A DNA stretch of 37,669 bases from a virus. The notes below the pieces were generated by a model that was given only the letters and a program-made list of their open reading frames with translations, had not been told where the DNA came from and ran no database searches. This document shows, one piece after another, positions 1 through 37,669 of the stretch. Position 1 is the first letter of the stretch; the number at the start of each line of letters is the position of its first letter. The stretch covers positions 1-37,669 of the IMG/VR virus record IMGVR_UViG_3300013119_000685; one strand, 5' to 3'. The position numbers and the translations under genes are program-made.

Positions 1-119
1 TCTGGCCATAACACATCAGGGTTAAACTTGCCGCCAAAGTATTCAACCCCGCAACCGGTAACAACCTCATCAATGAACCTATGCTTCTTGACTTCTTCCG
101 GCACAAGCGTTGCATGAAT
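1..119. repeat. Terminal direct repeat, copy 1 (contig circularity overlap)
   Basis: Bases 1-119 are identical to 37551-37669. The repeat lies inside a single open reading frame that continues across the join, so it is the same locus read twice and the true unit is 37550 bp. A 119-base overlap equals a k-mer size commonly used by short-read assemblers, so I infer an assembly overlap of a circular or circularly permuted molecule rather than a physical terminal repeat. Confidence 0.95.
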
Positions 120-425
120 GCCACCAAAGACTATTTTTGTTTTTGGCAGTTTCTTTTTAACCTGTTCAGCAAGCGACAAACCCCATTGATAAGTAGCAGT
201 AACACAAGAAATACCAACAACATCAGGGTTAAATTTATAAATGTTACGCACCAAAACCTTACGAACATCGAATAGAGTTCCGAGAAGCTTATTCCGAGAA
301 TAGCCCCTATTGAACTGCAAAGGATCGAAAAAGAGTTTGATATCATCCCCTCGCTTTCTTAAATGCCTGATGATATAGGCAGCGCCCAGCGAAACATCCT
401 CGGCACAACAAAATGCTATTTTCAT
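1..425 (-). CDS. Cobalamin-binding radical SAM protein, N-terminal part (gene crosses the contig join)
   Basis: The reading frame starts at ATG 425-423 (MKIAFCCAEDVSLGAAYIIR) and stays open to base 1. It continues in frame as 37550 down to 36644, giving 443 residues. This part is the Rossmann-like B12-binding domain: a beta strand at the start, the strand PDVVGISCVTA near residues 68-77, and GGIHATLVPEE at about 101-111, the turn typical of B12-binding radical SAM proteins. The cobalamin-ligating DxHxxG motif is not visible, as in many members. The start follows the stop of the upstream glycosyltransferase directly (TAA then ATG), so the genes are co-translated. The iron-sulfur part is described at 36644-37669. 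Confidence 0.88.
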   Translation of the reverse strand, partial: MKIAFCCAEDVSLGAAYIIRHLRKRGDDIKLFFDPLQFNRGYSRNKLLGTLFDVRKVLVRNIYKFNPDVVGISCVTATYQWGLSLAEQVKKKLPKTKIVFGGIHATLVPEEVKKHRFIDEVVTGCGVEYFGGKFNPDVLWP

Positions 426-1403
426 TTAATATTCCTCAAAAAATACCTCTGCATTTTTGTTTGAAAAATTAAGCAAGGCATAGTTCCTTGCCTTTACTTT
501 CATTGACAATAGTTGGCACTTGTCATTGTAAAGTTTTTCGATTGCCTTTTCAAAAGTATATGTTTCAGGGATGCCGCAAATCATGCCAAATGGCTCTACC
601 AATCCGGGCAACGACCCTCTTGCTGATGCAACAACCGCAAGCCCGGCTGAACATCCCTCAATAACCACTCTTGCAACCCCTTCATTATAGAGAGAAGGAA
701 CAACAAGAACATCAGCCATTTGATAATAGCTTTGCAAATCTTCGTATGAAATATCTGTAACATAGTGAAACCTCAACCCTTTTAAATGCGATAATCTCTC
801 CTGAACGAACTGGATTATGTGCATACCCTTTTTCCTTATCGGCCGACCTACGAATAAAACATCTAATTCGTTTTCTTTTTTATCTCTTGTCAATGGCGGG
901 CTTAATTTAAACAAGTCAACCCAATGCATAAATTTTTTTACATCCTGCTTGCGAACGGAAAATCCCAATTTGTAAATATCTTGCTCGCCGATACTATCCT
1001 CAACATATACAATATCAGAATGTCCCATGATAAAGGATGCGCATGTGTATTTTAAAAAAGGCCATTTTTCAAAACCATATATCGCAAGCGTTGTTGAAAG
1101 CAGTTTTACCTTAAAGAGCTTTTTCAATACTGCGCCTGTGGCCGTTCCGATAATCCCAAGGCAATGCACAGTTTCATATTTAAACTTCCGGCGCAGCAAT
1201 AGCGCTCTGAAAGTAAGCTCAACAAAAATCGTAAAGCATTGAAGCAAGCCGGGATTATCCCAATCCTCGAATTGCCTTTCCAGAGTAACAATCCTGACAT
1301 CAATTTTTTTAATAGCTTCATTATGCAAATCCTTGCAGAAGGTTTCAGCACCACCTACAAACTTCGGGCTGAACGGAGTTAAGATTAAAATTTTTTTGCG
1401 CAT
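426..1403 (-). CDS. Glycosyltransferase family 4 (GT-B fold)
   Basis: A 325-residue GT-B retaining glycosyltransferase, expected to move a sugar from a nucleotide donor onto a surface glycan or lipid precursor at the inner membrane face. The N-terminus carries the family start MRKKILILTPFSPKFVGGAE, where the glycine-rich loop binds the acceptor side. The C-terminal half has VLFVGRPIRKKG and the EX7E motif within NEGVARVVIEG. I chose ATG 1403 because the family N-terminus begins there and AGAGGA lies upstream; the frame is open 39 codons further back but those residues do not fit. The start overlaps the end of the GT2 gene by 19 bases. Donor and acceptor cannot be read from sequence. Confidence 0.88.
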   Translation of the reverse strand: MRKKILILTPFSPKFVGGAETFCKDLHNEAIKKIDVRIVTLERQFEDWDNPGLLQCFTIFVELTFRALLLRRKFKYETVHCLGIIGTATGAVLKKLFKVKLLSTTLAIYGFEKWPFLKYTCASFIMGHSDIVYVEDSIGEQDIYKLGFSVRKQDVKKFMHWVDLFKLSPPLTRDKKENELDVLFVGRPIRKKGMHIIQFVQERLSHLKGLRFHYVTDISYEDLQSYYQMADVLVVPSLYNEGVARVVIEGCSAGLAVVASARGSLPGLVEPFGMICGIPETYTFEKAIEKLYNDKCQLLSMKVKARNYALLNFSNKNAEVFFEEY

Positions 1404-2095
1404 AGGTAGATTATTCCTCTTGTAAATATCAACATAAATAAAAGCACAGCATAGTGCGGCTTGGCAATAAGCCGTTTCCACTTGCCCTTTTCGATGAAAA
1501 TCCAGAAACACCGATACCAAAGTTTTGTAACCTTATCATTCGGCCATTTCTCTTTAAATCTTTGCATGCTCTTGGCGTAGTAGACCTTTTTCTTTAGGTA
1601 TCGCCAAAGGTTCGCACCGTCATAGTGCCAAATGCAAGCAGCGGTTATCCCGCGCCGACCTTGAATGCGCCTATCCCAGTCGCTATCTTCCGGGCCTGAC
1701 ATTGTTTCATCAAAACGAGGACAATGTTTTGCCTCGACAAACCGAACAACATCAACTGGAGTGCAAATATAAAACTGCCTTTCCCAATCCCGAAGCCGGT
1801 TAAATAGGCCTGTTCCAAATGTCCTTTCAGGAATGTAAATAGATATGCATTTCTCTGCAAGTGCCATACATTGCTCTATAACTTTCGGCTCAACCATCTG
1901 ATCGCTATCAAGTATCAAGTAATAATCCCCCTTTGCTCTATCCATGCCGATATTCCTTTGAGCCGACCTCTCTTTGCCCTCATCAACAACAATAATTTCT
2001 ATGTTTTTATAAGTCGATTGTTTAATGCAGGCAACACAGTTTTCTATCTGTGCGTCTTTATGTGTCGGTATTATTATACTAACTAATGGTTTCAT
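1385..2095 (-). CDS. Glycosyltransferase family 2 (GT-A fold)
   Basis: A 236-residue GT-A glycosyltransferase. The first strand and nucleotide-binding site are VSIIIPTHKD near the N-terminus; ILDSDQM carries the DxD-type metal-binding motif; a GPEDSDWDRR stretch later in the protein resembles the ED acceptor-side motif of the family. ATG 2095 overlaps the upstream stop as ATGA, so I prefer it to the in-frame ATG three codons earlier (2104). A C-terminal hydrophobic stretch (HYAVLLFMLIFTRGIIYL) suggests membrane contact. It sits between a two-helix membrane protein and a GT4 gene in the cargo operon. The sugar is unknown. Confidence 0.88.
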   Translation of the reverse strand: MKPLVSIIIPTHKDAQIENCVACIKQSTYKNIEIIVVDEGKERSAQRNIGMDRAKGDYYLILDSDQMVEPKVIEQCMALAEKCISIYIPERTFGTGLFNRLRDWERQFYICTPVDVVRFVEAKHCPRFDETMSGPEDSDWDRRIQGRRGITAACIWHYDGANLWRYLKKKVYYAKSMQRFKEKWPNDKVTKLWYRCFWIFIEKGKWKRLIAKPHYAVLLFMLIFTRGIIYLCAKKF

Positions 2096-2304
2096 ATTTT
2101 CCATCTATTCTTTGCAAATCCTGTTACCAAATAACATATCAAAACACCAATTATTAAAAATGGACATAACATCAATGATATAAGAATACTAAATCCCCTA
2201 TTTTCTCTTTGATCATCATTTGGTTGTATCGCAGAATAATGTGCAAATAAAATCCCATAACAAACCCAAAAACAGATAACGCAAAGAATTGAATATGTTA
2301 TCAT
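2092..2304 (-). CDS. Small two-helix membrane protein
   Basis: A 70-residue protein with two hydrophobic helices: residues about 3-24 (YSILCVICFWVCYGILFAHY) and about 39-62 (ILISLMLCPFLIIGVLICYL), with a polar loop containing NDDQRENR. It overlaps both neighbours by ATGA (start 2304 with the radical SAM stop; stop 2092 with the GT2 start), so it is clearly part of the glycan operon. It is too small for a GtrA-type flippase, which has four helices, but its place between sugar enzymes suggests an accessory membrane role. No family recognised. Confidence 0.7.
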   Translation of the reverse strand: MITYSILCVICFWVCYGILFAHYSAIQPNDDQRENRGFSILISLMLCPFLIIGVLICYLVTGFAKNRWKI

Positions 2305-3695
2305 CCCTTCACCACCTTTCCTAAATCATGAAAGTTTCCGAACCTGTCATAGACCTTTTGACCTATGCGAATATAATATTTCAAATCCTCAAAGCTCTTT
2401 ATTCCCGCAATTTTTCGTGCGATAAACTCTGGATGGAACGCAGCATTGTAAATCCCTTTTTGAAGCGCAAACAATCTCTTTTCATAATAAGGAAGCTTCA
2501 TTACCGGCTTTGACATATCGTAATCTGTCCAATCTTCTGTGGCAAGCTTGCCCTGCTCTTTACACTCCTGCCAAAGCGGCGTTCCGGGATATGGTATGCA
2601 GATTGTCGCCTGCGCGCTTGAGGCCCACCCTTTTTTGAGCAACCACCGCACCATATTGTAAGTCCTTTTTGCATCCTCGCAGCTTTCCCAATGGTATCCG
2701 AACATAACCGTCAAATGGCTTTCAAGCCCTGCGGCCCGCGCCAATATCAAGTCCTGCATTACCGCCTTTTTGTCATAGCCCTTATTCAGCTTGTCAAGCG
2801 TTCTCTGATTAGCGCTTTCAAATCCCCAGAGCAACATCCTGAAACCGGCCTGCTTGAGTAGTGCAAAATCTTTTTCACCTAAAGCGCCAAATCTCATATT
2901 ACAGCTAAAGGCAACATGGTCGTTGTAACCCCTGTCGATAACCTCTTGGCAAAAAGTTCGCAGCCATTCCCCTGTCGGAAAAGTGCCGCTATCATCAAAG
3001 ATTTCCTTGAAGCCCATGCAAATCAACCCTTCAATTTCCGTTAAGACATCCTGCACATCCCTGATATGATAATTTTTATGATAGGTGGCCCAAGAGCAAA
3101 ACTTGCACTTGCGATACCAACAATCCATCGCTGACATGATATAAGTTCCGGGCAGGTATCTGAAGTTTCCATTCTTATAAGCATAAAGCCATGAGTTCGT
3201 AATCTGCCTGTTGATATGAGGTAATGGCGTTTTCTTATCCCATTCTGCGCCAGTTATAATCTTAAATACCTCATAATGCCAATCGCCGCCCTGAACAATA
3301 AAATCTGCATTGCATTCCTTTTTGCTTTCCTCTGGAAGCGCGGTTACATGCTGCCCGCATAAAATAACTTTGATATGCGGAAGGAATTGCTTTATGCCAT
3401 TAATCACTTCCCAGTATCTTTTAATTAAAGGCGTAGGCGCTTCAAATATTAAATACTGCGGCATCATCTGAACTATGGCCCGACCAAACTCTACTTCATT
3501 TAATTCGGAAGCCACCGCATCAAGCCATAATACCTGCGCTTTGCCGGAGTTCGCAAGCATGGTAGCTGATAAGGCCGGCACAATAGGGTAGGCAAAGAAT
3601 GGATCGGTAAACCATTGGAACTGCCTATTCTGCCCTATGGTTGCATAGCCCTTTGCATTTTTCATGGGTGGAACTACATAGATAACTTTTTGCAT
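2301..3695 (-). CDS. B12-binding-domain radical SAM protein
   Basis: 464 residues. The N-terminal ~150 form a B12-binding-like domain (VLWLDAVASELNE, then CGQHVTALPEE at about 113-123). A radical SAM TIM barrel follows, with a cysteine cluster at C192, C197 and C200, that is CX4CX2C (DCWYRKCKFC) rather than the usual CX3CX2C. FGYHWESCEDAKRT and the ATICIPYPGTPLW stretch are typical later barrel elements. Family members use 5'-deoxyadenosyl radical chemistry, often methylating or rearranging lipids, peptides or antibiotics. As the first enzyme of the cargo cluster it probably modifies a glycan or lipid. The start overlaps the upstream stop (TAATG) with AGGAG upstream. The substrate is not predictable. 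Confidence 0.88.
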   Translation of the reverse strand: MQKVIYVVPPMKNAKGYATIGQNRQFQWFTDPFFAYPIVPALSATMLANSGKAQVLWLDAVASELNEVEFGRAIVQMMPQYLIFEAPTPLIKRYWEVINGIKQFLPHIKVILCGQHVTALPEESKKECNADFIVQGGDWHYEVFKIITGAEWDKKTPLPHINRQITNSWLYAYKNGNFRYLPGTYIMSAMDCWYRKCKFCSWATYHKNYHIRDVQDVLTEIEGLICMGFKEIFDDSGTFPTGEWLRTFCQEVIDRGYNDHVAFSCNMRFGALGEKDFALLKQAGFRMLLWGFESANQRTLDKLNKGYDKKAVMQDLILARAAGLESHLTVMFGYHWESCEDAKRTYNMVRWLLKKGWASSAQATICIPYPGTPLWQECKEQGKLATEDWTDYDMSKPVMKLPYYEKRLFALQKGIYNAAFHPEFIARKIAGIKSFEDLKYYIRIGQKVYDRFGNFHDLGKVVKG

Positions 3696-7347: not shown

Positions 7348-7509
7348 TTAAAACTCCTTCAATCTGCATAATCCAAATAAACACCAACAGCGCTTGCACA
7401 TAGCATAATTCATTTTTATATGGAATGCGAACGGCGTAGGCCGTAGCCGCCTTTTCATATCACAATAATTGCATTTACCTTTATGATATTTAGATTTCTT
7501 CTTTTCCAT
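7348..7509 (-). CDS. Small zinc-ribbon-like protein, 53 aa
   Basis: ATG 7509 lies inside the end of the glycosyltransferase gene and follows GAGAGGGG. The 53 residues are lysine-rich at the start, then carry CNYC (C13, C16) and CKRCWC (C38, C41, C43) plus C48, a CxxC-x21-CxxC spacing like a zinc ribbon. Its TAA overlaps another ATG (7348) that has its own AAGGAG site and reads 12 codons into the tRNA-like element before stopping. Probably a nucleic-acid-binding or adaptor protein; no family assigned. Confidence 0.6.
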   Translation of the reverse strand: MEKKKSKYHKGKCNYCDMKRRLRPTPFAFHIKMNYAMCKRCWCLFGLCRLKEF

Positions 7510-8203
7510 ACACCCCTCTCTTTTTATTATACCAAACTTTCAATGTATCAATAAATGTTTGCGTTATAGTTTTTACACTAACGCTGCCCGGCCCTGATTG
7601 TTTGTAAATGTTCACCGGCGCATCCGCGATCCGAAACATCCGTTCCTTGCAGGCCACTATCAATTCCAGATCAAGCGCAAAACCTTTTATCTTTAAGCAA
7701 TCAATCACTTCATTTAAAACTCGTTTCCTGAATAACTTCAACCCGCATTGAGTATCCCGAAGCTCAATCCCGAATAGCTTGCGACACATGAAATTATAGC
7801 CATCGCTTATGAAGCGCCTATGCAAAGGATATGTCAGGTTGCTATATGGGTGTCGCTTGCTTCCAACCACCCCATCAGCATTATATAATTCCATTATCCT
7901 TAAGAAAACTTGTAATTCATGCAGCGCTACTTGCAAGTCGGCATCCATTATGGCCACATATTCGTATATTGTTTTTCTGATACCCTTCAAAATGGCGCTG
8001 CCTTTTCCTCTGTTTGGATAGTGAGTTAATACCATATCTGCAACTTTCCTTGCCTTGTGGAATGTTCCATCTGTCGATCCATCATTAACAACTATAATCT
8101 CATTCCTGATTTCCATCGCCTTAAGCTGCTCTTTTATCCGCAACACATTGTCCTTAATGGTATTACATTCATTGTAAGCGGGTATTACAACGCTTAAATC
8201 CAT
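7490..8203 (-). CDS. DPM1/GtrB-like GT2: polyprenyl-phosphate sugar synthase
   Basis: 237 residues with the full signature of dolichol/undecaprenyl-phosphate glycosyltransferases: MDLSVVIPAYNE at the N-terminus, IIVVNDGSTDGT, NRGKGSAILKGI, the metal-binding MDADLQ, and DTQCGLKLFRKRV. Family members transfer mannose, glucose or a related sugar from a nucleotide donor to a polyprenyl phosphate on the cytoplasmic face. The product would be the natural donor for the GT-C enzyme encoded at 31369-32826. It lacks the two C-terminal membrane helices of many GtrB proteins, so it is probably peripheral. The start overlaps the replication gene stop (TAATG), so it is made with early replication proteins rather than from the main cargo cluster. 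Confidence 0.88.
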   Translation of the reverse strand: MDLSVVIPAYNECNTIKDNVLRIKEQLKAMEIRNEIIVVNDGSTDGTFHKARKVADMVLTHYPNRGKGSAILKGIRKTIYEYVAIMDADLQVALHELQVFLRIMELYNADGVVGSKRHPYSNLTYPLHRRFISDGYNFMCRKLFGIELRDTQCGLKLFRKRVLNEVIDCLKIKGFALDLELIVACKERMFRIADAPVNIYKQSGPGSVSVKTITQTFIDTLKVWYNKKRGVYGKEEI

Positions 8204-11857: not shown

Positions 11858-11886
11858 ATTATACCATAGTGGTTTATGGTTGTCAA
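11858..11886 (-). promoter_or_regulatory. Consensus sigma-70 promoter with operator in the spacer
   Basis: Minus strand: TTGACA (11886-11881), a 17-base spacer, TATAAT (11863-11858). All twelve hexamer bases match the consensus. The spacer holds ACCATA-N6-TATGGT (11880-11863), a perfect inverted repeat that would be occluded by RNA polymerase, as expected for a repressor operator. It lies just after the last late gene and drives the ribbon-helix-helix gene and the unit downstream. Confidence 0.88.
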
Positions 11887-11896
11887 TAGTATTTTT

Positions 11897-12471: not shown

Positions 12472-12475
12472 TTTT

Positions 12476-12784
12476 TTACCCCCTGTTTTTGCCGTTTAAT
12501 AAAATCTTCTTTATATCGGCCTTAACTTCTAACAATGTAGCATCTTGTCTTTTAATAGCTTTTAATATCTGGTCTGTTTTTACATGGCAAATTTCCTTCA
12601 TAACATATTTTTTATCAGTTGCTTCTTTGTTCTCATCAAAGCGGGTATATATCCTTGTGCGCTTTTCGTGTGCATCTTCAGCCACATTTTTTATTTCAGA
12701 CTTGATGTTATTCATTACCCTGTAAAACAAACCTATTGCCGCAATTAAAACTGTTAATGTCGCTATCCCGAGCTGGCTACTCAT
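12476..12784 (-). CDS. Membrane-anchored coiled-coil protein (XhlA/spanin-like), 102 aa
   Basis: One N-terminal membrane helix (IATLTVLIAAIGLFYRVM), then a long charged coiled coil (NNIKSEIKNVAEDAHEKRTR and on to the C-terminus). This shape is common among phage lysis accessory proteins next to holins, such as hemolysin XhlA-like proteins or inner-membrane spanin subunits. The start overlaps the fibre-like gene stop (ATGA), with GAGG upstream. The exact lysis role is inferred from size, topology and position only. Confidence 0.6.
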   Translation of the reverse strand: MSSQLGIATLTVLIAAIGLFYRVMNNIKSEIKNVAEDAHEKRTRIYTRFDENKEATDKKYVMKEICHVKTDQILKAIKRQDATLLEVKADIKKILLNGKNRG

Positions 12785-13836
12785 TTTTTCCTCATCTTTT
12801 TAAACTTCACGCAGTCAGGAAGCTTTTCAACCATTCTGCGCTTTAAACACACCTTGTCTTTTGATATTTTAGTTTTAGCCCAATCCGGAGTTACTATTTC
12901 TTCCAAAACCTCTCCCGGCTTATCGCCAAACTCGTCAATCTCAATAATTTCTCTTGGCTTATATGTCGGCCCACTTGCCATATGCGGAGTAAAGTCTTCG
13001 TTGATAACCTGCAACAAGCTGCGCTGCCGGGTAACTCTTTTATTAGCTGCCTCAAGGAAATCATTATCCGCCAAAACAACTTCATGCTTGGCCGCATCAT
13101 AATCCAAAAACGGATGAGGGACATCGTTCTCATCGCCGGGCGTTCCATAGCAGGGATGGTCTGGCGCTTGGTAACTTGCAACTACTTTCTTGGCAAACTT
13201 ATCCCACAATAAGAATACCCAATACTCTTTTCCTGAAGAAGTGATGTATCTTTGTTTAGCATAAGCAGTAGTTCCGGATAAATGTATTTGAGTAGTATAA
13301 ATTGAATTTGAAGCTGTGCTTGTAATAACTGCATCATAATTACCTGCCGTAACTTTTGTCTGCGGATAGAAGCCATATTCCCCGCCACCCATAGCACTAT
13401 TTCCGCTTCCTGATTGCGATACCTCGCTTGTCGTTGATTTGAGCTTTGCCTGTGAAATCGCAGCAGCAGCAATTTTTGCTTCTGTAACCGCCGTATTGAT
13501 TAGTTCTTCTGTCCCGATTGAGCCTGTGCCGGCGGCCACGCTGTCCCAAGTTGCGCCATTGTATACCTTAAAATCGTTTGCATCGGTATTGTAAAATATC
13601 TGCCCTACAATGCCGCTTCCCGGATCACCCGTGCTATTAACAACAACACCCTGTGTATTAAAACAAACACCGATAAATGTTTTCAAATCAGTATAAGAGC
13701 CGGCAACATCTGTGCCAAGTTCAGTTTCAATGGCAGTAACCTCGCCTTGTAAAACATTTATATCATCAGCATCGTTCTTATCTACCTTATTAACCTTTGT
13801 CGTAAAACTAACTAAACTTCCCGGATATGTAGCCAT
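12781..13836 (-). CDS. Putative tail fibre or receptor-binding protein, 351 aa
   Basis: Begins MATYPGSLVSFTTKVNKVDK followed by a short coiled coil (DINVLQGEVTAIETELGT), an arrangement I associate with trimeric fibre N-termini. Next is a beta-rich region with FYNTDANDFKVYNGATWDSV, typical of fibre repeats, and EELINTAVTEAKIAAAAISQ, another short heptad region. The C-terminal third is different: charged, with PHPFLDYDAAKHEVVLADND and a very basic end (CVKFKKMRKK). Placed after the LamG-baseplate protein, it may contact the host surface. The C-terminal region is not recognised. AAGGAG precedes the start. Confidence 0.65.
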   Translation of the reverse strand: MATYPGSLVSFTTKVNKVDKNDADDINVLQGEVTAIETELGTDVAGSYTDLKTFIGVCFNTQGVVVNSTGDPGSGIVGQIFYNTDANDFKVYNGATWDSVAAGTGSIGTEELINTAVTEAKIAAAAISQAKLKSTTSEVSQSGSGNSAMGGGEYGFYPQTKVTAGNYDAVITSTASNSIYTTQIHLSGTTAYAKQRYITSSGKEYWVFLLWDKFAKKVVASYQAPDHPCYGTPGDENDVPHPFLDYDAAKHEVVLADNDFLEAANKRVTRQRSLLQVINEDFTPHMASGPTYKPREIIEIDEFGDKPGEVLEEIVTPDWAKTKISKDKVCLKRRMVEKLPDCVKFKKMRKK

Positions 13837-28927: not shown

Positions 28928-29073
28928 TATGTAAAAAACATCATTGCTAAACCAATTATGCCGCGCACTATTCTAATACTGTGGCACTTTACCCAACTCT
29001 CACTTGGATATGAGAATACGCTATAAATGCAATCAGCCAACAACCATACACCACACATCTTTATCCAAACCAT
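28927..29073 (-). CDS. Small membrane protein, 48 aa
   Basis: ATG 29073 overlaps the TAA of the ParB-methyltransferase gene, and its own TAA overlaps ATG 28927 of the terminase: TAATG at both ends, with GGAG upstream. The product begins MVWIKMCGVWLLADCIYSVF and ends IIGLAMMFFT, giving two short hydrophobic segments around a polar loop (SYPSESWVKCHSIRIVRG). It fills exactly the gap between two well-supported genes. Function unknown. Confidence 0.65.
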   Translation of the reverse strand: MVWIKMCGVWLLADCIYSVFSYPSESWVKCHSIRIVRGIIGLAMMFFT

Positions 29074-30269
29074 TATATCTTCTCCGCTTTAAGGTTTGTA
29101 TATTTCTCCCATCGGTCAATTATAACCTGACAATACAGAGGGTCTATCTCCATCATATAGCATTTACGATTTGTTTTTTCACAAGCTATTGCAGTTGTTC
29201 CAGTTCCAGCAAATAAATCAACAACTATTGAACCATAATTATAACCATGATCTATAAATCTTAATGGCAACTCAAGAGGATATGTATCATTATGAATTTT
29301 TGTATTTATATTTTCTCTACTCGCACTATCTGTTTCTATATAATTTGAAAAATTACCTCTAAACCTTTTATTGCCCCATCTCCGAGAGTTTTCCTTGCCC
29401 AATAAAATAATTACCTCAACTTGTGAATTAGCTACATTCTCAGCCATTGCAGGTGCAACCTGCAATTTTTTCCAATAAAATATATCTTTAAAATAACCAG
29501 ATAAATCGCCAAGCCACCTCAATATTTCTCGTTTATTATTCGCTAATAGTTGAATATTAACAAAAACTTCTTTTGCAATATCCAGCGCAATTAATGTTGA
29601 ATACTTTATTAAATCTTGATAATTCGGTAAATTATCATCACTACTAATATATTTACTCGTTGTTTTATACCCTAAATTATGCCCCACATTATACGGCGGA
29701 GAATGAAACACCATATCCGCTTTCTGCCCTGCCATTAGCTTTTCAACATCTTCCTTTTTCGTTGCATCTCCGCACATAAGTCTATGATTACCAAGAAGAT
29801 ATATATCTCCAAGCTTAACATCCGTTTCTTGCCTAACCTCTGGAACATCATCAGCTTCTTCATCTTTATCCAACTGGAATATCTTATCAAGCTCCTCGCT
29901 GTCAAATCCTACATCCTTAAGCAAGTCCTCGTTAAAATTCGCCAATAAGTCTATATCCCAACTACCCAAGTTTTTGTTTAACCGCAGATTTAATTCCTGC
30001 TCTTTTTCCGGTGGCAAATTTACAAAAACGACAGGCACTTCTGTATATCCAAGTTTTTGCGCTATGTTCCAACGCTGATGGCCGCCTATGATTATATTTT
30101 CTCTGGCAGGGTATTGGTTTACAATAAGAGGATCTTTAAGGCCGAAGCGTTTAATGCTTTCAGATAAATCTTTAAACTGCTTATCGGTAAGCTGGCGAGG
30201 ATTATATTCAGCAGGCCGCAAAACTTTTATATCTATATATCTAACTTGAATTTTCGCCTCTGTGTCCAT
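29073..30269 (-). CDS. ParB-domain DNA methyltransferase, 398 aa
   Basis: The N-terminal ~100 residues form a ParB/Srx-type domain (IKVLRPAEYNPRQLTDKQFK; IGGHQRWNIAQKLG). The C-terminal ~250 are a beta-class amino-methyltransferase, with motif IV HSPPYNV and motif I VDLFAGTGTT. Such fusions are common in phages and integrated elements, where the ParB domain may bind DNA or a nucleotide. ATG 30269 has AAAGGTGG upstream; the 14 extra codons to 30311 have none. A promoter-like sequence lies about 113 bases upstream. It probably methylates phage DNA just before packaging. Confidence 0.88.
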   Translation of the reverse strand: MDTEAKIQVRYIDIKVLRPAEYNPRQLTDKQFKDLSESIKRFGLKDPLIVNQYPARENIIIGGHQRWNIAQKLGYTEVPVVFVNLPPEKEQELNLRLNKNLGSWDIDLLANFNEDLLKDVGFDSEELDKIFQLDKDEEADDVPEVRQETDVKLGDIYLLGNHRLMCGDATKKEDVEKLMAGQKADMVFHSPPYNVGHNLGYKTTSKYISSDDNLPNYQDLIKYSTLIALDIAKEVFVNIQLLANNKREILRWLGDLSGYFKDIFYWKKLQVAPAMAENVANSQVEVIILLGKENSRRWGNKRFRGNFSNYIETDSASRENINTKIHNDTYPLELPLRFIDHGYNYGSIVVDLFAGTGTTAIACEKTNRKCYMMEIDPLYCQVIIDRWEKYTNLKAEKI

Positions 30270-30362
30270 CGCCAGCCACCTTTCAAAAAAAATAGAGAGC
30301 GCGCACTTCATCTGTGCGTCAACTCTCTTTGAGTTCTTTACTTCGTTTGTTTGTTCCGGGCC

Positions 30363-30530: not shown

Positions 30531-30587
30531 TTTGTTTTTTCTACCTTATCAATTTCATTTAACAACAGGCCGTTTTTTGGGCTGTTA

Positions 30588-30689
30588 TTTACTTTACTTT
30601 ACTTTACTTTACTTTACTTGTGGGAGAGTAAGTCGAGAGTAGGTCAAGAGTAACTCTAGAGTAAACCACTTATCCACAGGTTATTCACA
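30588..30689. other. Candidate replication origin: TTTAC iterons plus two DnaA boxes
   Basis: Six tandem TTTAC units (30588-30617), then TTGTGGGAGAGTAA shared with the replication gene, then GAGTA-type repeats including GAGTAACTCTAGAGTAA (30648-30664). Two consensus DnaA boxes follow: TTATCCACA (30670-30678) and TTATTCACA (30681-30689). A third TTATCCACA lies at 30496-30504 inside a small gene. The 167 bases between the genes (30531-30697) hold no protein gene. AT-rich iterons beside DnaA boxes are the usual makeup of theta-replication origins. Confidence 0.65.
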
Positions 30690-31065: not shown

Positions 31066-31272
31066 TTAGTAGCCCTCTCCCATGAAAAACTTTTTAAAAA
31101 ACCTTATAATCGGGTTCTTGTGTTCCCTGTGCTTGTCTTTGGAAATCATGCGTTCCTGCACCGGCACAGGCGGCCTGTATTTATTGATTTTCAAATTGCG
31201 TTTCTTGTTCTGCTTTACTACGACTTCCGGTTGCTTGCCGAACGCACCGGGATTTTTAGGTGTCTTTGTCAT
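31066..31272 (-). CDS. Small basic protein, 68 aa
   Basis: A highly basic, low-complexity protein (KQNKKRNLKINKYRPPVPVQ; ISKDKHREHKNPIIRFFKKF) with no recognised fold. It starts at ATG 31272 behind AGGACAGGAAG, inside the end of the 38-codon membrane gene. Possibly a nucleic-acid- or membrane-surface-binding peptide. Confidence 0.55.
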   Translation of the reverse strand: MTKTPKNPGAFGKQPEVVVKQNKKRNLKINKYRPPVPVQERMISKDKHREHKNPIIRFFKKFFMGEGY

Positions 31273-31372
31273 CTTCCTGTCCTTTCATCTTAAAATAAAA
31301 ACCTATTATGCCACCCGCCACAAGCGCCATTATAAAAACTACTGCGCAGAGCTTAGGCGTTGGAATTGTCAT
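31256..31372 (-). CDS. Single-span membrane protein, 38 aa
   Basis: ATG 31372 overlaps the stop of the GT-C gene (ATGA). It begins MTIPTPKLCAVVFIMALVAG and continues GIIGFYFKMKGQEDDKDT: one transmembrane helix with a charged tail. The tight overlap suggests it may accompany the GT-C enzyme in the membrane. Below normal gene-size cut-offs. Confidence 0.55.
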   Translation of the reverse strand: MTIPTPKLCAVVFIMALVAGGIIGFYFKMKGQEDDKDT

Positions 31373-32826
31373 TTCTTCTCCGCCACCGGCACACTTACTT
31401 CCGGCGTTCCCGGTGCTGCTTCTTCTTTTTTCTGTGTTAATACTTTATTATCTATTAAGAATTTAATAAGCAAGTCAAGATCGTCTTTCGGCTTCTTCCA
31501 ACGCGGCTCAATCTGCAACGCCATCTTCCAACAATCCAATGCCCGCAAAAATCTATTCTTGCCTTCGATAGTCTGCAAGTGGCCTGTGGCCGCCCATGTT
31601 ACGCCCAAATTATACCAGAGCAGCTTATTCTGATTGTCAAGGTCTATGCCCCGCTTGATAACAACCCGCGCTTCCTCAAACCTGTTTTGATGTATCAGGA
31701 AAAAGCCCAAATTGTTCAAGCCGTAATCACTTCTCGGATGGTTACGCCAATTCTCCCGGTAGAGCTTTTCGTCATTAACCATGTGCCTGCTGTATGTGTA
31801 TGCCTTTGAAGCGTATATCGCTATTATGGCAACGAAGATTTCCGGATGGACTACGACATAAGGCGCCGCCACAAGCGCAAGGCCCATGCTTCCAAAATAA
31901 ACATACCTGTCCTGCAAATAGGAATTGGTGGCCAATATATTCATGTTCGGAAGCATACCCAGCAGATACCACCACCCGGCCACGCCCTTTGTTGCAAGCC
32001 AAGCGGCCAAACCATATCCCATTAAGGCCCAAGCATTGAAACCGTCCCATGCGGAGTTAAACCTGAAGCCACCTTCATGATACCATCCCATCTTTACCGG
32101 AAAAGCTGTTATCCCGGCATAATATATATACACCCTCGCCAAGTTCGTAAACCTGCGCTTATTAAACCGGTAGTGCGTGCGATCTAAAATTAAAGCGCCT
32201 GTGCCAAAGCGTTGCTTGAACTTCCAAACACCCCAACCCATCATACAAAGCATAATAATAAGATATAAAGTAGGTTGCCACGCAGTAGGTTGCATTATCT
32301 TAATAAGCACAGGCAGAAAAAACACCGATAAGCTCGTCATAGTTGCCAAGATATAAAGTGGCAACACAACATAAAGCTTATCCCAAAGCAATATAGACAC
32401 AAGCGCAAGACAGGTTGATATCCCATACGGTCGGCCGCTACACCAAACCGCTATTTGATTTTGCATAGGATTGGTTGTCCAGAGAAGCGTTGCAGGTATA
32501 GCGGCAGTCGGCCCGATCAGCTTTGCTGCCACAAGATAGAAAAGATAAGTATTAAGCATGTGCAGCAAATAATTAAATAAATGCCACCCAAAAGGCGTTT
32601 GCCCAAATACTGCCCATAAAGCTTTATTCAGATAATACATGACAGGCCCATCGTTCAGCACCTTGAGCCAATGATTTTCCTTCTTTGGAGTTTTTTCGCC
32701 TTCCGGGATAATATCCTTCCTGCGCTCAATTACGGCATGGTCATCTGAAATAAACCCGCACAACAAAGAGTAATGCCAAGTAATCGCCGATATTCCCAAA
32801 ACAAGCTGTATGTTCCAATCAATCAT
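31369..32826 (-). CDS. GT-C membrane glycosyltransferase with C-terminal TPR (TMTC-like)
   Basis: 485 residues with about ten hydrophobic segments. The first periplasmic loop has ISDDH (D28, D29), the position of the catalytic acidic pair in GT-C enzymes. WHLFNYLLHMLNTYLFYLVA and IAVWCSGRPYGIST, then YLQDRYVYFGSMGLALVAAP, match TMTC-type O-mannosyltransferase-like proteins. Residues about 370-460 form two or three TPR-like helices (YGLNNLGFFLIHQNRFEEAR; LWYNLGVTWAATG; ALDCWKMALQIEP). GT-C enzymes use polyprenyl-phosphate sugars, which the DPM1-like enzyme at 7490 could supply. It probably adds a sugar outside the inner membrane. It overlaps the RmlD-like gene by eight bases. Confidence 0.8.
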   Translation of the reverse strand: MIDWNIQLVLGISAITWHYSLLCGFISDDHAVIERRKDIIPEGEKTPKKENHWLKVLNDGPVMYYLNKALWAVFGQTPFGWHLFNYLLHMLNTYLFYLVAAKLIGPTAAIPATLLWTTNPMQNQIAVWCSGRPYGISTCLALVSILLWDKLYVVLPLYILATMTSLSVFFLPVLIKIMQPTAWQPTLYLIIMLCMMGWGVWKFKQRFGTGALILDRTHYRFNKRRFTNLARVYIYYAGITAFPVKMGWYHEGGFRFNSAWDGFNAWALMGYGLAAWLATKGVAGWWYLLGMLPNMNILATNSYLQDRYVYFGSMGLALVAAPYVVVHPEIFVAIIAIYASKAYTYSRHMVNDEKLYRENWRNHPRSDYGLNNLGFFLIHQNRFEEARVVIKRGIDLDNQNKLLWYNLGVTWAATGHLQTIEGKNRFLRALDCWKMALQIEPRWKKPKDDLDLLIKFLIDNKVLTQKKEEAAPGTPEVSVPVAEKK

Positions 32827-33682
32827 TATAATATTCCTTCAGGTAATCTTCCAAGCTTTCGCGCCAACCGCGCATGGCGCTGACAGAAGGCGGCGTCATA
32901 ATTGAAACCATACCTTCGTTTGTTGCTCTCGGCGCAAAGTATTTGCTATCAAAAACCTTGCTTTGAACCGCAATTACTTCTGCGTCCGATTTCATAAGCT
33001 CAACGATTGCCTTTGCCACTTCACATCTTGTCGTAACGCCCTTGCCAGCAACATGGTAAATGCCATGCGGCTGTCTATTCTCAAGGAAGCGCTTAATGGT
33101 TTTGGCAACATCCCTTGTATATGTAGGCGAGCCGAGCTTATCATCTACGGCGTATATCTGCTTTTTGCCTCGCTTCACCTGCTGATAAATAGCATTGACG
33201 AATTTCTTGTCAAGCTTCGGGCCGCCGCCCATAGCCCAAGACATGCGCAGGATATATTTATTCGGATAATAATGCAGGGCAAGTTCCCCATAATACTTGC
33301 TTCTGCCGTAATGATTGATAGGATTGGCCCTGTCGTGCTCGGAATACGCCTCTTTTTGCTGTCCGTCAAATATCCCTGCCGTTGACATATAGACAATCGG
33401 AATAGCGCCTTCTTCAAGCGCCGCTATGGCAATATTCTGCGTGCCTATGGTATTGGTAAAATAGGCATGGTCAGGCCTTCTCTCGCAGATTTCAAGGTCG
33501 GTTTCCGCCGCCAAGTGCAAAATAGCCGAAGGCATAGTTTCCTTTATCTTCCTGCGAACCTCATATATATCCCTAACATCCATATCGAATATATCTGTCG
33601 CTATAAGTTCGTGTTTTCCCATAAACTCTTTGCGTATAGCTTCGCTAAGCATACCATTTGCACCTGTGCAAAGTATCTTCAT
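32819..33682 (-). CDS. RmlD-like NAD(P)-dependent sugar reductase
   Basis: 287 residues, an extended SDR of the dTDP-4-dehydrorhamnose reductase type. TGANGMLSEAI carries the Rossmann glycine motif, shortened relative to GxxGxxG. VYMSTAGIFDG holds the serine/threonine site, and YGRSK contains the catalytic Tyr125 and Lys129. DKLGSPTYTRDVAKTI and GIYHVAGKG are conserved RmlD/MAT2B-family segments. The expected reaction reduces a 4-keto nucleotide sugar to a deoxysugar such as dTDP-rhamnose. No RmlA, B or C is present, so host intermediates would be used, or the substrate differs. Confidence 0.85.
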   Translation of the reverse strand: MKILCTGANGMLSEAIRKEFMGKHELIATDIFDMDVRDIYEVRRKIKETMPSAILHLAAETDLEICERRPDHAYFTNTIGTQNIAIAALEEGAIPIVYMSTAGIFDGQQKEAYSEHDRANPINHYGRSKYYGELALHYYPNKYILRMSWAMGGGPKLDKKFVNAIYQQVKRGKKQIYAVDDKLGSPTYTRDVAKTIKRFLENRQPHGIYHVAGKGVTTRCEVAKAIVELMKSDAEVIAVQSKVFDSKYFAPRATNEGMVSIMTPPSVSAMRGWRESLEDYLKEYYND

Positions 33683-34686
33683 AAATATCTCCTTATCTGC
33701 CTTAAAACTTCAGGCGCTCGCTTTTTCCAGTCCCAAGTTTTAGCCCATTGCTTTGCCTGCTCTCCTTCTTTCTGCACTTCCTGCGGATTATCTAAAGCAT
33801 AAATTATTGTCCTTGCGAATTGCTCTGTATCCTTGCAGGCAGACACGCCTTTTATCCTCTTGAAATATTGCAGGACGGGCAATCTGAACATTATCATAGG
33901 GCAGCCGCAGGCCATCGCTTCAACCGAACCCATGCTAAAATGTGAATATTCAACAGGCGTTGTATATAAAACAAGCTTGCTTTTTTTATATATCTCAAAG
34001 CGTTCATCACCCATATAGCCAAGCAAATCTACATTGTCATGCCAAGCTGCCCATTGACTAAGCTTTTCTTCTTCGCTGTCCCCGCCACCTATTATAGCAA
34101 GCCTAGCTTCTGGCATAATATCAGATACCAAACCCCAAATCTTCATAAGCTCGTCTATGCCCTTTGTCTTATGGAAGCGGCCAATAAACACGCAATCGTA
34201 TTCCTTTTTGAAATTACCTCTTGGTATCTTCTCAAAATTAACCCCGCCATGAACTGCGATTAACTTCTTGCCCTTGAACTTATCAAACATGCTTTCATTG
34301 GTAACGCATACGACATCCGCAAAAAGCTTGATAATCCAATATGCAATCTTCTGCGAATAGTAATATATTTTATTATCCTTTGGTGCAAAAAGATAAAAGC
34401 TTGCAACCCATTTACAGCCCTTTAACTTATAGATAAAGCCGGGAAAAGTATCCATCCAAAAATCAGAAGATGTATATACAAATTCGTATTTGTTCTTATC
34501 AAACAAAGCTACAAAGCAACCGAGCATTATGCGATTAAGATATGCCAACCAAAATGGTTTAAAGTCAACATTTTGCATTTCATATATATAAATCCTGTCC
34601 TTCCAATATCTTCTGAAATTCAGATAGATATTATCGCTACCTGATAAGCCACCCTTCCACCTTGCGTTTGCTATTATTAAAATCAA
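33679..34686 (-). CDS. Glycosyltransferase family 4
   Basis: 335 residues, GT-B fold. The N-terminal domain is unusually rich in aromatic residues (FYLFAPKDNKIYYYSQKIAY). The C-terminal domain has DCVFIGRFHKTKGIDELMKI, LAIIGGGDSEEEKL, VDLLGYMGD and SHFSMGSVEAMACGCPMI. The last is the EX7E region, in which the first Glu appears to be Ser (SHFSMGSVE), a notable change because that Glu normally contacts the donor sugar. It overlaps both neighbours by four bases. Donor and acceptor are unknown. Confidence 0.86.
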   Translation of the reverse strand: MILIIANARWKGGLSGSDNIYLNFRRYWKDRIYIYEMQNVDFKPFWLAYLNRIMLGCFVALFDKNKYEFVYTSSDFWMDTFPGFIYKLKGCKWVASFYLFAPKDNKIYYYSQKIAYWIIKLFADVVCVTNESMFDKFKGKKLIAVHGGVNFEKIPRGNFKKEYDCVFIGRFHKTKGIDELMKIWGLVSDIMPEARLAIIGGGDSEEEKLSQWAAWHDNVDLLGYMGDERFEIYKKSKLVLYTTPVEYSHFSMGSVEAMACGCPMIMFRLPVLQYFKRIKGVSACKDTEQFARTIIYALDNPQEVQKEGEQAKQWAKTWDWKKRAPEVLRQIRRYL

Positions 34687-35303
34687 ATCATGCCCCTCAG
34701 TTTTAATCGGTAAACCTCTATTTTGCTCAAATCCGGATATCCTTGATCATCAACTGGCAAATCCTTGAGCTTTTTCCTTTTCAAACTATTAAACAGCATA
34801 AGCCCTTTTGCGGCCTGTGGTGGCGTCATATACATATTCCAACCAAGCATGCTTATTTTATCCTCAGAAAGCGGGACTTCATTGCGCCCATCAAACCTCG
34901 CTGCTTTGAAATAAATATATGCCTCTCTGCTATCTGTTAAAATCATGCCACCCCTTCCAATCGGCAAATGCTTTTTAATATGGAACGATAAGCAATACAA
35001 GCTGTCCTTGATATACATGCCCCTTTCAAAACGCAACGCACTATCGTATATCTCGTATGGTCGAAGCTGATATATTCCACTCCAAGCTTCATTGTGGAAG
35101 CTAACCTTCCCGCCTGCATGAATAATACTGCAAGCCACGCCGGGATAGGTGTGCTTCGGGATATGCACCCATCGCACCTTTTTATAGAGGCAACAAAGGA
35201 ACAAAGCATTTGTGCAGCTTGAAACCGCAATTGCATATTTCGATCCGGCATATTCCGCAACCTTTTCCTCGAATGCCCTTACTATCTCATATTCATTCTC
35301 CAT
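34683..35303 (-). CDS. Shortened DegT/DnrJ/EryC1-type aminotransferase, 206 aa
   Basis: The large PLP domain is recognisable: AIAVSSCTNALFLCCL (the SGTxAL region), HIPKHTYPGVACSII, YEIYDSALRF with Asp87 for the pyridine nitrogen, and LSFHIKKHLPIGRGGMIL with Lys111 at the PLP position. Full enzymes have about 370-400 residues; this one starts at the FEEKVAEYAG segment and ends soon after the PLP lysine region. The C-terminal small domain is nearly absent. Key residues are kept and the frame is intact, with coupled overlaps at both ends. So it may be a minimal functional enzyme or a non-catalytic derivative, rather than simple decay. Family role: amino-sugar synthesis. Confidence 0.75.
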   Translation of the reverse strand: MENEYEIVRAFEEKVAEYAGSKYAIAVSSCTNALFLCCLYKKVRWVHIPKHTYPGVACSIIHAGGKVSFHNEAWSGIYQLRPYEIYDSALRFERGMYIKDSLYCLSFHIKKHLPIGRGGMILTDSREAYIYFKAARFDGRNEVPLSEDKISMLGWNMYMTPPQAAKGLMLFNSLKRKKLKDLPVDDQGYPDLSKIEVYRLKLRGMI

Positions 35304-36069
35304 ATCTCACCCTATAATAATCAGGATTACTCTCATCTAAAATTCCAAGCGCCTGAACAACCCAAAGTTTTTTGTAATCCAATAAGTATAGGGCATAAAT
35401 AACATACATCACAACCCATCTAAAAGTTCCGATTATAGTTATACAAATTATCGCAAGCGGCATAATGTTGAACAAAGCACCTAAGACAATCCAATACCTA
35501 ACTGTATAAAAAGATAACGCCAACCAACTTGAAGTTGGGTCAATCAAATTCTTCAAAAACCTGTTAAGAAAATTATCCTTCTCGTTCATATATCCCCTGA
35601 ACAGCTTGTTGCCCTTGTAGCTGTTAAAACCAAAACGATTGTTATAATAAACACTGATTACATTCATAATACTGTTGCCGATAAAAAACAGCATTACGAC
35701 GGCCAAGAGGAAAGGTAAAACCTTCGCTGTTAAACCCTTCAATATGCCGAAGCATATAGCCGCCATAATGCTATTTTGCAATATGATATCGCCTATGCTG
35801 TCAAACCACTCGCCGGCTTTTGAAGATAATCCTGTCCGCCTTGCCAAGTCACCGTCAACATAGTCTAATATTATATTGACAATACACGCACAAAGACCAA
35901 GCAGGTAGCCCAAGTGCGTGCCTCTTGAAAACAAAAAGCAAACTATTGTTATTGTAAAAAGAAAATTAAATACAGTAACCTGATTAGGTGTAATGCCTAA
36001 AGAGATAAACGGCTTCGTTATAATCGGGCTTATCTTTTCGTTATATATTTTATGTGTCCATTCTGTCAT
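35293..36069 (-). CDS. CDP-alcohol phosphatidyltransferase
   Basis: 258 residues, an integral membrane enzyme with about six helices. The complete family motif is present: D69-x2-D72-G73-x2-A76-R77-x8-G86-x3-D90-x3-D94 (within DYVDGDLARRTG and AGEWFDSIGD). These Asp residues bind the metal and the CDP-alcohol. Family members transfer a phosphatidyl or phospho-alcohol group, making lipids such as phosphatidylinositol-phosphate or phosphatidylglycerol-phosphate, or similar headgroups. A phage-encoded copy among glycosyltransferases suggests a glyco-phospholipid anchor or modified lipid. It overlaps the methyltransferase stop (ATGA) and the aminotransferase start. Confidence 0.9.
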   Translation of the reverse strand: MTEWTHKIYNEKISPIITKPFISLGITPNQVTVFNFLFTITIVCFLFSRGTHLGYLLGLCACIVNIILDYVDGDLARRTGLSSKAGEWFDSIGDIILQNSIMAAICFGILKGLTAKVLPFLLAVVMLFFIGNSIMNVISVYYNNRFGFNSYKGNKLFRGYMNEKDNFLNRFLKNLIDPTSSWLALSFYTVRYWIVLGALFNIMPLAIICITIIGTFRWVVMYVIYALYLLDYKKLWVVQALGILDESNPDYYRVRYGE

Positions 36070-36668
36070 TTTTTAACAAGGCATGCGCAAATCTGCCCTT
36101 TCCTTTCTGTGTATTCTGCTATGTGGAAATTAGAACTAACTATCTCTTTTAAAAAATCTTCATAAGAAAAACCTTCCCACTCATGTCCCTGCGCATATTC
36201 TTTTGTAGGTATTGTCAAAAGCAATCTCCCCCCTCTTTTTAAATTTAATGCCATAGTTTCAACTGCCTTATAGGGATATTTCGTATGCTCTAAAACAGAA
36301 ATGCAAGTTATAAAATCAAAATTTTCGACAAATTTATGTTTAATAGTTATATCTTTTAAAATGAAAGCTATCCTTTTTAACTTCTCCTGATAAGGTCGTA
36401 TATCCAGCCCGTAAGTTCGATACCCCCTTTTCTTTAGTTCGTATATGAATAAAGAAGAAGTTGTTCCAATATCAAGCACTTTAAATTGTTGCCACTTATC
36501 TAACTTTGGCAAATACTCTAAAACCCAATCCCATTCATCTGCTCTTATGTGCCATCCTGTTATTCTGTATGCCCAATACAACATCTTAAATCTAAGCGCA
36601 CCGCAAAATCCAAGAGATTTAAATTTTTTCACAATTGTATTTGCTAAAAAGGTTTTAACTTTTTCCAT
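36066..36668 (-). CDS. Class I SAM-dependent methyltransferase
   Basis: 200 residues. FKVLDIGTTSSLFIYELKKR and TYGLDIRPY form the SAM-binding Rossmann motifs. FDFITCISVLEHTKYPYKAV and RGGRLLLTIPTKEY are the classic post-motifs of UbiE/Methyltransf_11-type small-molecule methyltransferases. In this setting it probably methylates a sugar, lipid or headgroup. GAGGGCGAT precedes ATG 36668, which overlaps the radical SAM gene end by 25 bases. Confidence 0.86.
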   Translation of the reverse strand: MEKVKTFLANTIVKKFKSLGFCGALRFKMLYWAYRITGWHIRADEWDWVLEYLPKLDKWQQFKVLDIGTTSSLFIYELKKRGYRTYGLDIRPYQEKLKRIAFILKDITIKHKFVENFDFITCISVLEHTKYPYKAVETMALNLKRGGRLLLTIPTKEYAQGHEWEGFSYEDFLKEIVSSNFHIAEYTERKGQICACLVKK

Positions 36669-37669
36669 ATCGCCCTCACAGTAAAAAAGATTTCGTTCTG
36701 CAACATAGCAAGAGGGATAAACCCTCTGCCCGATTTTAAATATACTAAAAGCTTAATAATCCATAACGGCAATATCTCATAAGCTATCCCGCCAAGTGGT
36801 ATGGCCGCAAAACCCTTTGCATACTCTTTATAAAACTTGCTCGGCTGATTGCCCTGCTGATAAGTTATGCTCTTTCCCTCGTTTATCTTTTGGATTTCAG
36901 AAGGCATTATCGCACCTGTCCTGACAGCTATATCTATTATTTTCGCTTTCGGAAAATATACCAGCTCATAACAATTGATTATATCAGGATTGATTTCCGT
37001 ATAAAGATTATAGCTTATGTCCTGCGAGCCTGCATTTTCTGTCGGTATGCCGAATATATGGTCAACGATTAGCTGTATGCCTGCGTCTTTTATCAGCTTG
37101 CATTTGTCAACTATTTCCCTATTGCTTTCAGGCCTATTCATTATTTGTTTGCGCAAGCGCTCATCACCGCTTTGTATGCCGAGCCAAGCGGTATGGCAGC
37201 CCGCTTCTTTTAATTGCATGATAACTTCCTCATCTAAAAATCTAACATGCGCAAAACAGCAGAAAGGTGAGCCAATGTGTTTTTTATATTCAATAAGGAA
37301 ATGCTTCAGCCACTTTTTATCGGCAGTAAATATATCATCTACAAATAAAACATACTTCATGCCTCTTGTTTTTAGATCCGCAAGTTCGTGAATACATCCC
37401 TCGACTGAACGCCGGAATAGTTTATGCTGCCTTACGGCCCTCAATTGTTCATTCCCGCAAAAAGAGCAATTAAAAGGGCAGCCGAAGCTTGTCATAAATA
37501 ACTGATATTTCCTATGCACCGGCGGAAGCTCTTTAAGGAATATTTCCCTGTCTGGCCATAACACATCAGGGTTAAACTTGCCGCCAAAGTATTCAACCCC
37601 GCAACCGGTAACAACCTCATCAATGAACCTATGCTTCTTGACTTCTTCCGGCACAAGCGTTGCATGAAT
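36644..37669 (-). CDS. Cobalamin-binding radical SAM protein, C-terminal part (gene crosses the contig join)
   Basis: Continuation of the gene that starts at 425; together 443 residues. The radical SAM cluster motif SFGCPFNCSFCGNEQ gives C166, C170 and C173 in the full protein (CX3CX2C), which hold the 4Fe-4S cluster that cleaves SAM. VLFVDDIFTADKKWLKHFLI, HTAWLGIQSGDERLRKQIMN and LIVDHIFGIPTENAGSQD are typical barrel segments. An N-terminal B12 domain plus this barrel defines class B radical SAM enzymes, often methyltransferases. A C-terminal helical tail (YEILPLWIIKLLVYLK) is hydrophobic and may touch the membrane. Read linearly, the window cuts this gene in two. Confidence 0.88.
   Translation of the reverse strand: MHATLVPEEVKKHRFIDEVVTGCGVEYFGGKFNPDVLWPDREIFLKELPPVHRKYQLFMTSFGCPFNCSFCGNEQLRAVRQHKLFRRSVEGCIHELADLKTRGMKYVLFVDDIFTADKKWLKHFLIEYKKHIGSPFCCFAHVRFLDEEVIMQLKEAGCHTAWLGIQSGDERLRKQIMNRPESNREIVDKCKLIKDAGIQLIVDHIFGIPTENAGSQDISYNLYTEINPDIINCYELVYFPKAKIIDIAVRTGAIMPSEIQKINEGKSITYQQGNQPSKFYKEYAKGFAAIPLGGIAYEILPLWIIKLLVYLKSGRGFIPLAMLQNEIFFTVRAIWKKLKPF
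37551..37669. repeat. Terminal direct repeat, copy 2 (contig circularity overlap)
   Basis: Exact copy of bases 1-119. Removing one copy and joining the ends restores an uninterrupted 443-codon gene on the minus strand (425 down to 1, then 37550 down to 36644). See the entry for copy 1. Confidence 0.95.

Follow-up and report, generated by a model that had tools for sequence, protein, structure and literature searches.

What does a 37-kb phage gain from a long pathway of sugar, lipid and radical chemistry, and does this pathway belong to the phage at all? The question is raised by the IMG/VR virus record IMGVR_UViG_3300013119_000685, whose whole stretch of 37,669 nucleotides (hereafter the window) carries a block of eleven genes that an original prediction, made on the letters alone, described as a surface glycolipid cluster running through the contig join. 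According to the comparisons reported here, the block is a module conserved within a phage lineage, and relatives carry a phosphonate pathway inside it; its enzymes probably build, in the host envelope, a glycoconjugate that is linked to polyprenyl and bears phospho or phosphono groups, the most likely purpose being to alter receptors.

The block extends from RS1, a radical S-adenosylmethionine (SAM) gene starting at 3695, through the join to the GT-C/TPR gene ending at 31369, thus covering 9,877 bp or 26% of the genome. The predicted eleven co-oriented genes are all present on the minus strand, and the neighbours overlap or abut at 10 of 10 junctions, none exceeding 0 nt (distances of -4, -13, -19, 0, -25, -4, -11, -4, -4 and -8 nt). 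From the first to the last, they are:

2301..3695, minus strand: RS1, radical SAM enzyme with a weak B12-like N-terminal domain, 464 aa, first gene of the block (PF04055, 1.7e-10)
2092..2304, minus strand: small membrane peptide, 70 aa, an open reading frame (ORF) overlapping both neighbours
1385..2104, minus strand: GT2 glycosyltransferase, 239 aa (PF00535; 48-58% identical among four phages)
426..1403, minus strand: GT4a glycosyltransferase (PF00534; 36-40% identical among four phages)
1..425, minus strand: 5' part of RS2, B12-binding radical SAM enzyme, N-terminal 141 codons (ORF through the join; PF02310, 6e-16)
36644..37550, minus strand: 3' part of RS2, radical SAM domain with C-x3-C-x2-C, to the stop codon (PF04055, 1.4e-19)
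36066..36668, minus strand: SAM-dependent methyltransferase, 200 aa (PF13489)
35293..36069, minus strand: CDP-alcohol phosphotransferase, 258 aa (PF01066, 2.5e-15)
34683..35303, minus strand: half-length DegT-type aminotransferase, 206 aa, in the variable slot (PF01041, 4.7e-19)
33679..34686, minus strand: GT4b glycosyltransferase, 335 aa (PF13692/PF00534)
32819..33682, minus strand: RmlD-like NAD-dependent reductase, 287 aa (PF04321, 1.1e-60)
31369..32826, minus strand: polytopic membrane protein, GT-C-like with C-terminal TPR, 485 aa, last gene of the block (PF07719; 47-58% identical among four phages)

Pfam supports the gene assignments made originally, with three corrections concerning the B12 domain of RS1, the length of the DegT-type protein and the start of GT4a, which is probably at about 1403 and not at the longest-ORF start, 1520. 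Two B12 radical SAM enzymes had been proposed; RS2 (443 aa as a whole, interrupted by the join from 425 to 1 and from 37550 to 36644, and 49-60% identical among four phages) is indeed a B12-dependent radical SAM protein, combining PF02310 and PF04055 with C-x3-C-x2-C, whereas the B12 domain of RS1 in the window stays below the Pfam cut-off (PF02310, 20.3 bits vs 32.1), with all five homologues matching at E<=0.01. The cysteine spacing of RS1 is unusual, at C-x4-C or longer (C-x4-C-x2-C in the window protein) and not C-x3-C-x2-C. The CDP-alcohol phosphotransferase belongs to its family by the complete motif D(x)2DG(x)2AR(x)8G(x)3D(x)3D, which is invariant except for the Arg, and its closest PDB entry is AF2299 (4o6m). 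In the GT-C/TPR protein Pfam detects the TPR part only; its predicted structure, of low confidence (pLDDT 55), finds its best PDB fold match in ArnT and also resembles oligosaccharyltransferases, a likeness that is at most suggestive. The small membrane peptide has no Pfam family above the cut-off and is not conserved in the relatives.

The assignment of the block to a phage is strongly supported by a closed circle, a second assembly and syntenic relatives with the same structural genes. Positions 1-119 of the window equal 37551-37669, giving a circle of 37,550 bp, and PHROGs recognise portal, terminase, protease, major head protein, tape measure and minor tail proteins. The features concerned are:

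1..119, no strand: terminal repeat of 119 bp, identical to 37551-37669; join crossed by contig G001
22426..28584, minus strand: head and packaging genes (terminase, portal, protease and major head protein; PHROGs), downstream of the block on the circle and arranged likewise in the relatives G018 and G016

The passage of the block through the contig join is likewise borne out, the RS2 gene itself being split by it; a second IMG/VR contig (G001, IMGVR 3300006856_000097; 22,836 bp), which is 99.94% identical and spans the window from 22523 through 1 to 37238, crosses the join and carries tail genes, RS1, GT2, GT4a and part of RS2. The window phage also has a replication-initiation-like gene (PHROG match). 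Tyrosine integrases (PF00589) are absent from six records, serine integrases not having been searched as a family, and no tRNA genes, which would have hinted at a host, were found.

Outside this record the block is found in phages. Viral contig scans recover an ordered core (radical SAM, GT2, GT4, B12-radical SAM, CDP-alcohol phosphotransferase, variable slot, GT4, RmlD and GT-C/TPR), complete and in the same order, in three related phages with 36-66% identity, and a fourth contig holds part of it:

G018, IMGVR 3300032163_000725, 41,936 bp: full core; 127-bp terminal repeat, the second complete circle
G016, IMGVR 3300025889_013162, 28,943 bp: full core
G011, IMGVR 3300009285_006822, 40,480 bp: full core
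G021 (L139), IMGVR 3300033153_002190: partial core, contig ending at the start of GT4b

In L139 the order is DPM-like GT2, RS1, GT2, GT4a, RS2, CDP-alcohol transferase, half-length DegT, cytidylyltransferase, DUF2061 protein and start of GT4b; a further contig, L140, shows tail genes, the DPM-like gene and RS1 before it ends. RS1 is 46-65% identical in G018, G011 and G016; the methyltransferase at 36066..36668 has a homologue in G016, and G011 and G018 hold different methyltransferase genes. As in the window, the block lies upstream of terminase and portal in G018 and G016, while G011 has it in the opposite orientation to its structural genes. The search among hosts, which had been suggested together with that among phages, disclosed no close relative of the GT-C protein in 84,980 prokaryotic genomes (scanned with two short peptide patterns, which detect close relatives only); in the same genomes an alignment of the portal gave matches of only 27-29%, in one from Thermaceae and in a deltaproteobacterial metagenome-assembled genome. 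Among 50,697 phage records, megablast and tblastn found nothing that matches a 17.7-kb stretch, GT-C, RS1 or the CDP-alcohol transferase, and for RS2 a weak match only, in Streptomyces phage SF3 (23%).

The divergence of the block follows that of the virion genes. Mean pairwise identities are 46-55% for eight core block genes and 46-53% for eight structural genes, and the codon-position divergence of the block is about that of the capsid genes, which places it under similar purifying selection. Four-taxon trees of the block and of the structural genes favour the same topology, significantly for the block only; the structural-gene tree is indecisive, excluding no topology, and it is because of equal divergence and synteny, and not of the tree, that the two sets are regarded as inherited together. 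The block thus behaves as a resident module of the phage lineage and not as a recent capture, since its core order is kept, its divergence matches that of the structural genes and the codon-position divergences are nearly equal. Looser sets of similar genes (L142-L151), often near the terminase, occur in further groups of phages whose terminase is a different one (29-35% identical); they comprise RS1-like proteins (38-48%) that are shorter and align without the B12-like part, distant GT-C/TPR proteins (21-23%), GT2, a third radical SAM type and more radical SAM genes; one of these phages, G027, has a 119-bp terminal repeat.

The part of the block that changes between relatives is the interval between the CDP-alcohol transferase and GT4b, here called the variable slot. 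It holds the half-length DegT gene in the window and in G018, where a methyltransferase then follows; in L139 the same gene precedes a cytidylyltransferase and a DUF2061 membrane protein. In G016 the slot contains a phosphoenolpyruvate (PEP) mutase, a phosphonopyruvate decarboxylase (Ppd) in two short subunits, an iron alcohol dehydrogenase (Fe-ADH) whose best NCBIfam match is TIGR03405 (Phn_Fe-ADH), and a cytidylyltransferase. In G011 the slot is occupied by genes for a small membrane protein, a cytidylyltransferase and a methyltransferase-like protein; PEP mutase and Fe-ADH are encoded shortly beyond the GT-C gene. Three relatives (G016, G011 and L139) thus have a cytidylyltransferase in the slot next to the CDP-alcohol transferase, a pairing that suggests activation by CTP, and then transfer to a lipid or glycan, of a small phosphate or phosphonate alcohol. 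An unrelated phage, G019 (closed genome of 48,293 bp with a 119-bp repeat and a different major head protein), has a glycan cluster with PEP mutase, both decarboxylase subunits, a very short Fe-ADH and a GT-C/TPR homologue, its CDP-alcohol transferase lying elsewhere in the genome, outside the cluster.

The putative PEP mutases of G016, G011 and G019 possess a loop of the EDK...NS type (EDNLPELKTNS / QDDMPHLKQNS) and not the KRCGH motif of the lyases; their best family is TIGR02320, below the equivalog cut-off, and their best PDB match is the Mytilus PEP mutase (E=6e-53). An Fe-ADH acting after Ppd, in place of a transaminase, predicts hydroxyethylphosphonate and not aminoethylphosphonate. No PEP mutase occurs in the closed circle of the window, and the phosphonate chemistry is therefore a statement about the relatives only. 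These phosphonate-type genes (PEP mutase, split Ppd, shortened Fe-ADH and cytidylyltransferase) lie at L032:8999-11592, L029:6237-6614 and 11553-13261, and L134:101-2042, in three uncultivated phage contigs, one of them closed (G019). In the open-access literature no paper was found that describes phage-borne phosphonate biosynthesis.

The aminotransferase in the slot of the window is about half the usual length (206 aa vs about 370 aa for the full-length fold), and the Lys and Asp for pyridoxal phosphate are invariant in six phage homologues; its AlphaFold model has a pLDDT of 34. Proteins of this type, of about 200 aa and 37-69% identical to that of the window, form a DegT-like family in phages that lacks around half of the usual protein and includes members from cultured Flavobacterium and Synechococcus phages and from a 595-kb phage genome. 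Its loci are:

window 34683-35303; L044:18974-19570; L139:15622-16257; L165:13986-14630; L166:9998-10585; L167:10001-10588

A different addition characterises G011, where the small membrane protein in the block (L029:6051-6233) matches PF14373, Imm_superinfect, of the T4-Imm type, with 54.9 bits vs a cut-off of 27.9; neither 14 control genomes nor the nine other phage records examined contain this family.

How these enzymes might work together is inferred from the chemistry of their families, and the enzyme set fits well with the synthesis or alteration of a host surface glycolipid, as originally supposed, with the product itself standing as a proposal in biochemical terms. A probable twelfth member has to be considered, placed apart from the block:

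7490..8203, minus strand: DPM-like GT2, 237 aa, candidate polyprenyl-phosphate sugar synthase (PF00535, 1.2e-28)

In the window DNA methyltransferase and other genes separate this gene from RS1; its membership is probable, as G016, L139 and L140 all have it immediately upstream of RS1. The DPM-like GT2 would charge polyprenyl phosphate with a sugar, GT2, GT4a and GT4b would assemble a short oligosaccharide, and RmlD, together with the half-length DegT in the window phage, may be the source of deoxy or amino sugars. The radical SAM enzymes and the SAM methyltransferase could modify carbons of the sugar or lipid, and the CDP-alcohol phosphotransferase would attach a phospho-alcohol headgroup or, in some relatives, apparently a CMP-activated phosphonate alcohol. 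Finally, the GT-C/TPR protein may consume the polyprenyl-linked sugar outside the membrane and finish the product, which would fit a Gtr-like step with the DPM-like GT2. The modified lipid-linked glycan would be made in the cytoplasmic membrane and shown on the cell surface, where its most likely effect is to mask phage receptors or to take their place, which would spare an infected or carrier cell a second infection and keep progeny from sticking to debris.

Receptor alteration is the preferred purpose on two grounds, namely that phage surface-glycan genes usually serve it and that G011 has the Imm-type gene; the latter is the one independent support for the block to superinfection originally envisaged, which is plausible as a purpose. 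Several points weigh against this interpretation. The window has no cytidylyltransferase, and the GtrA flippase (PF04138) is found neither there nor in four relatives, so that the host, or else a gene that escapes recognition, would have to provide the CDP-alcohol donor and the route across the membrane; the window phage and G018, in particular, would depend on their hosts for the CDP-alcohol. As no tyrosine integrase was found, there is no sign of a stable lysogen that would profit from masked receptors; only one relative has an Imm-type gene, and the GT-C assignment leans on the low-confidence model.

A surface product could instead serve the infected or carrier cell, for example against grazers, through its charge or in phosphorus use, with no effect on phage adsorption. 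The enzyme set, which indicates such a product, is silent on its benefit, the slot chemistry differs between relatives, and the replication-initiation-like gene with the lack of a tyrosine integrase would allow an extrachromosomal carrier state; the Imm_superinfect gene of G011 points to superinfection, however, and a lysogeny or maintenance system is not demonstrated, which leaves this explanation as a minority possibility. That the block glycosylates tail or capsid proteins of the phage itself, for example with GT-C/TPR as a protein O-glycosyltransferase, appears somewhat less probable again. GT-C/TPR proteins do resemble protein O-mannosyltransferases of the TMTC type, and the fold matches to ArnT and oligosaccharyltransferases agree with this, but a membrane GT-C and a CDP-alcohol phosphotransferase work at the membrane and not on cytoplasmic virion parts, where moreover no use for CDP-alcohol headgroup chemistry is apparent.

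Some phages have glycosyltransferases that act on DNA, and the window has three DNA methyltransferase genes; nevertheless, a hypermodified or glycosylated base protecting the phage DNA is very improbable, given that GT-C, CDP-alcohol phosphotransferase and DPM-like GT2 have no known role in DNA modification and that no nucleotide-modifying gene is present in the block. As for a host segment joined by misassembly or captured once, the gene families of the block are common in bacteria, yet the closed circle, the second assembly across the join, the same ordered core in three relatives with the same structural genes and matching divergence, and the lack of a close GT-C relative in the prokaryotic genomes leave it almost no credence; it was rejected on the second assembly and the syntenic relatives. 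Around the preferred host-surface glycoconjugate, a wider picture can be drawn tentatively, as a possibility that is rather doubtful in its entirety: a lineage of small tailed phages with a modular surface-remodelling operon would swap the headgroup slot, and some would derive from phosphoenolpyruvate a phosphonate headgroup that, once activated with CTP, is joined by the CDP-alcohol transferase to a phage-built glycolipid, giving a surface that competitors do not recognise.

Since several glycosyltransferases and sugar enzymes are encoded together on what is a genuine phage genome, the block is a probable phage-encoded surface-glycan island, and the closest systems can be compared with it. 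The gtrA-gtrB-gtrC seroconversion cassettes of phages, as in prophage BTP1 (PMC4413052), consist of about three genes; like them, the window has phage genes that would alter a surface glycan, with a candidate GtrB-like GT2 that may make a polyprenyl-phosphate sugar and a candidate GT-C-like membrane protein that would use it, so that part of the block may work as gtrABC does. Unlike them, it counts 11-12 genes and adds sugar-nucleotide, radical SAM, methyl and CDP-alcohol headgroup chemistry; the DPM-like GT2 (7490-8203) and the GT-C-like protein (31369-32826, low-confidence model) are not adjacent, and membership of gtrABC was rejected in the absence of GtrA and of a neighbouring tyrosine integrase. 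Pelagimyophages carry lipopolysaccharide gene islands and are reported to have radical SAM cassettes; their authors propose a surface change against co-infection (PMC7029224). They share with the window several glycosyltransferases and sugar enzymes in a tailed phage, but these occupy a hypervariable region or scattered groups of 2-3 genes in large genomes, in contrast to a compact syntenic module with a CDP-alcohol phosphotransferase in genomes of 37-42 kb.

The cultured Flavobacterium phage immuto (160 kb) and Synechococcus phage S-SCSM2R (244 kb) have around ten glycan genes and a homologous half-length DegT (41% and 36%), which in S-SCSM2R adjoins a radical SAM gene; their annotated stretches show no CDP-alcohol phosphotransferase, B12-radical SAM or GT-C/TPR. 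The contrast drawn in the original prediction with known cassettes of two or three genes was therefore too strong, and with such islands and clusters known, large glycan clusters in phages are nothing new as such. The present block is set apart by being compact, syntenic and lineage-wide in a genome of small size, by its CDP-alcohol headgroup step, and by an exchangeable slot that can hold phosphonate genes. For the latter, the bacterial counterparts are the phosphonyl-tailoring (Pnt) clusters and the Fom1-type activation of hydroxyethylphosphonate with CMP in fosfomycin synthesis (PMC6697681, citing Fom1). G016 resembles them in having PEP mutase, split Ppd, Fe-ADH and cytidylyltransferase beside a CDP-alcohol transferase, and differs in being a phage, in the alcohol dehydrogenase in place of a transaminase and in its unusually short enzymes; the window phage lacks these genes. 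In the cultured Vibrio phage Va2 (MW073017.1), PEP-mutase-like and phosphonopyruvate-decarboxylase-like genes a few kb apart flank its ribonucleotide reductase genes (L135:1089-7194) and are not part of a glycan block.

Other features were noted in the window. Directly past the GT-C gene, at 31066-31272, a small basic protein with a C-terminal RFxKxFFGEG-like motif has no family match, and similar ORFs occur in G011 and G018 (L029:13584-13799; L045:5256-5462). The three DNA methyltransferase genes are at 29073-30311, 4258-5055 and 5651-6286 (a ParB-like fusion, an N6/N4 type and an MT-A70). Two regions of 75 nt (8479-8553 and 30545-30619) are 75% identical and end in short tandem repeats of the TTTAC type; they are possibly a regulatory or origin-like element. 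Promoter and terminator scans gave values near those of shuffles, and Rfam gave no match.

In the usual picture of phage surface conversion, a polysaccharide already in place receives a single sugar. In the present case a genome of 37 kb stably maintains a long, ordered pathway, lipid-headgroup and radical chemistry included, of which the relatives change one slot. If this slot sets the headgroup chemistry, it would offer a direct test of phage competition by rewriting of the cell surface, and phosphonate synthesis would join what small phages may do.

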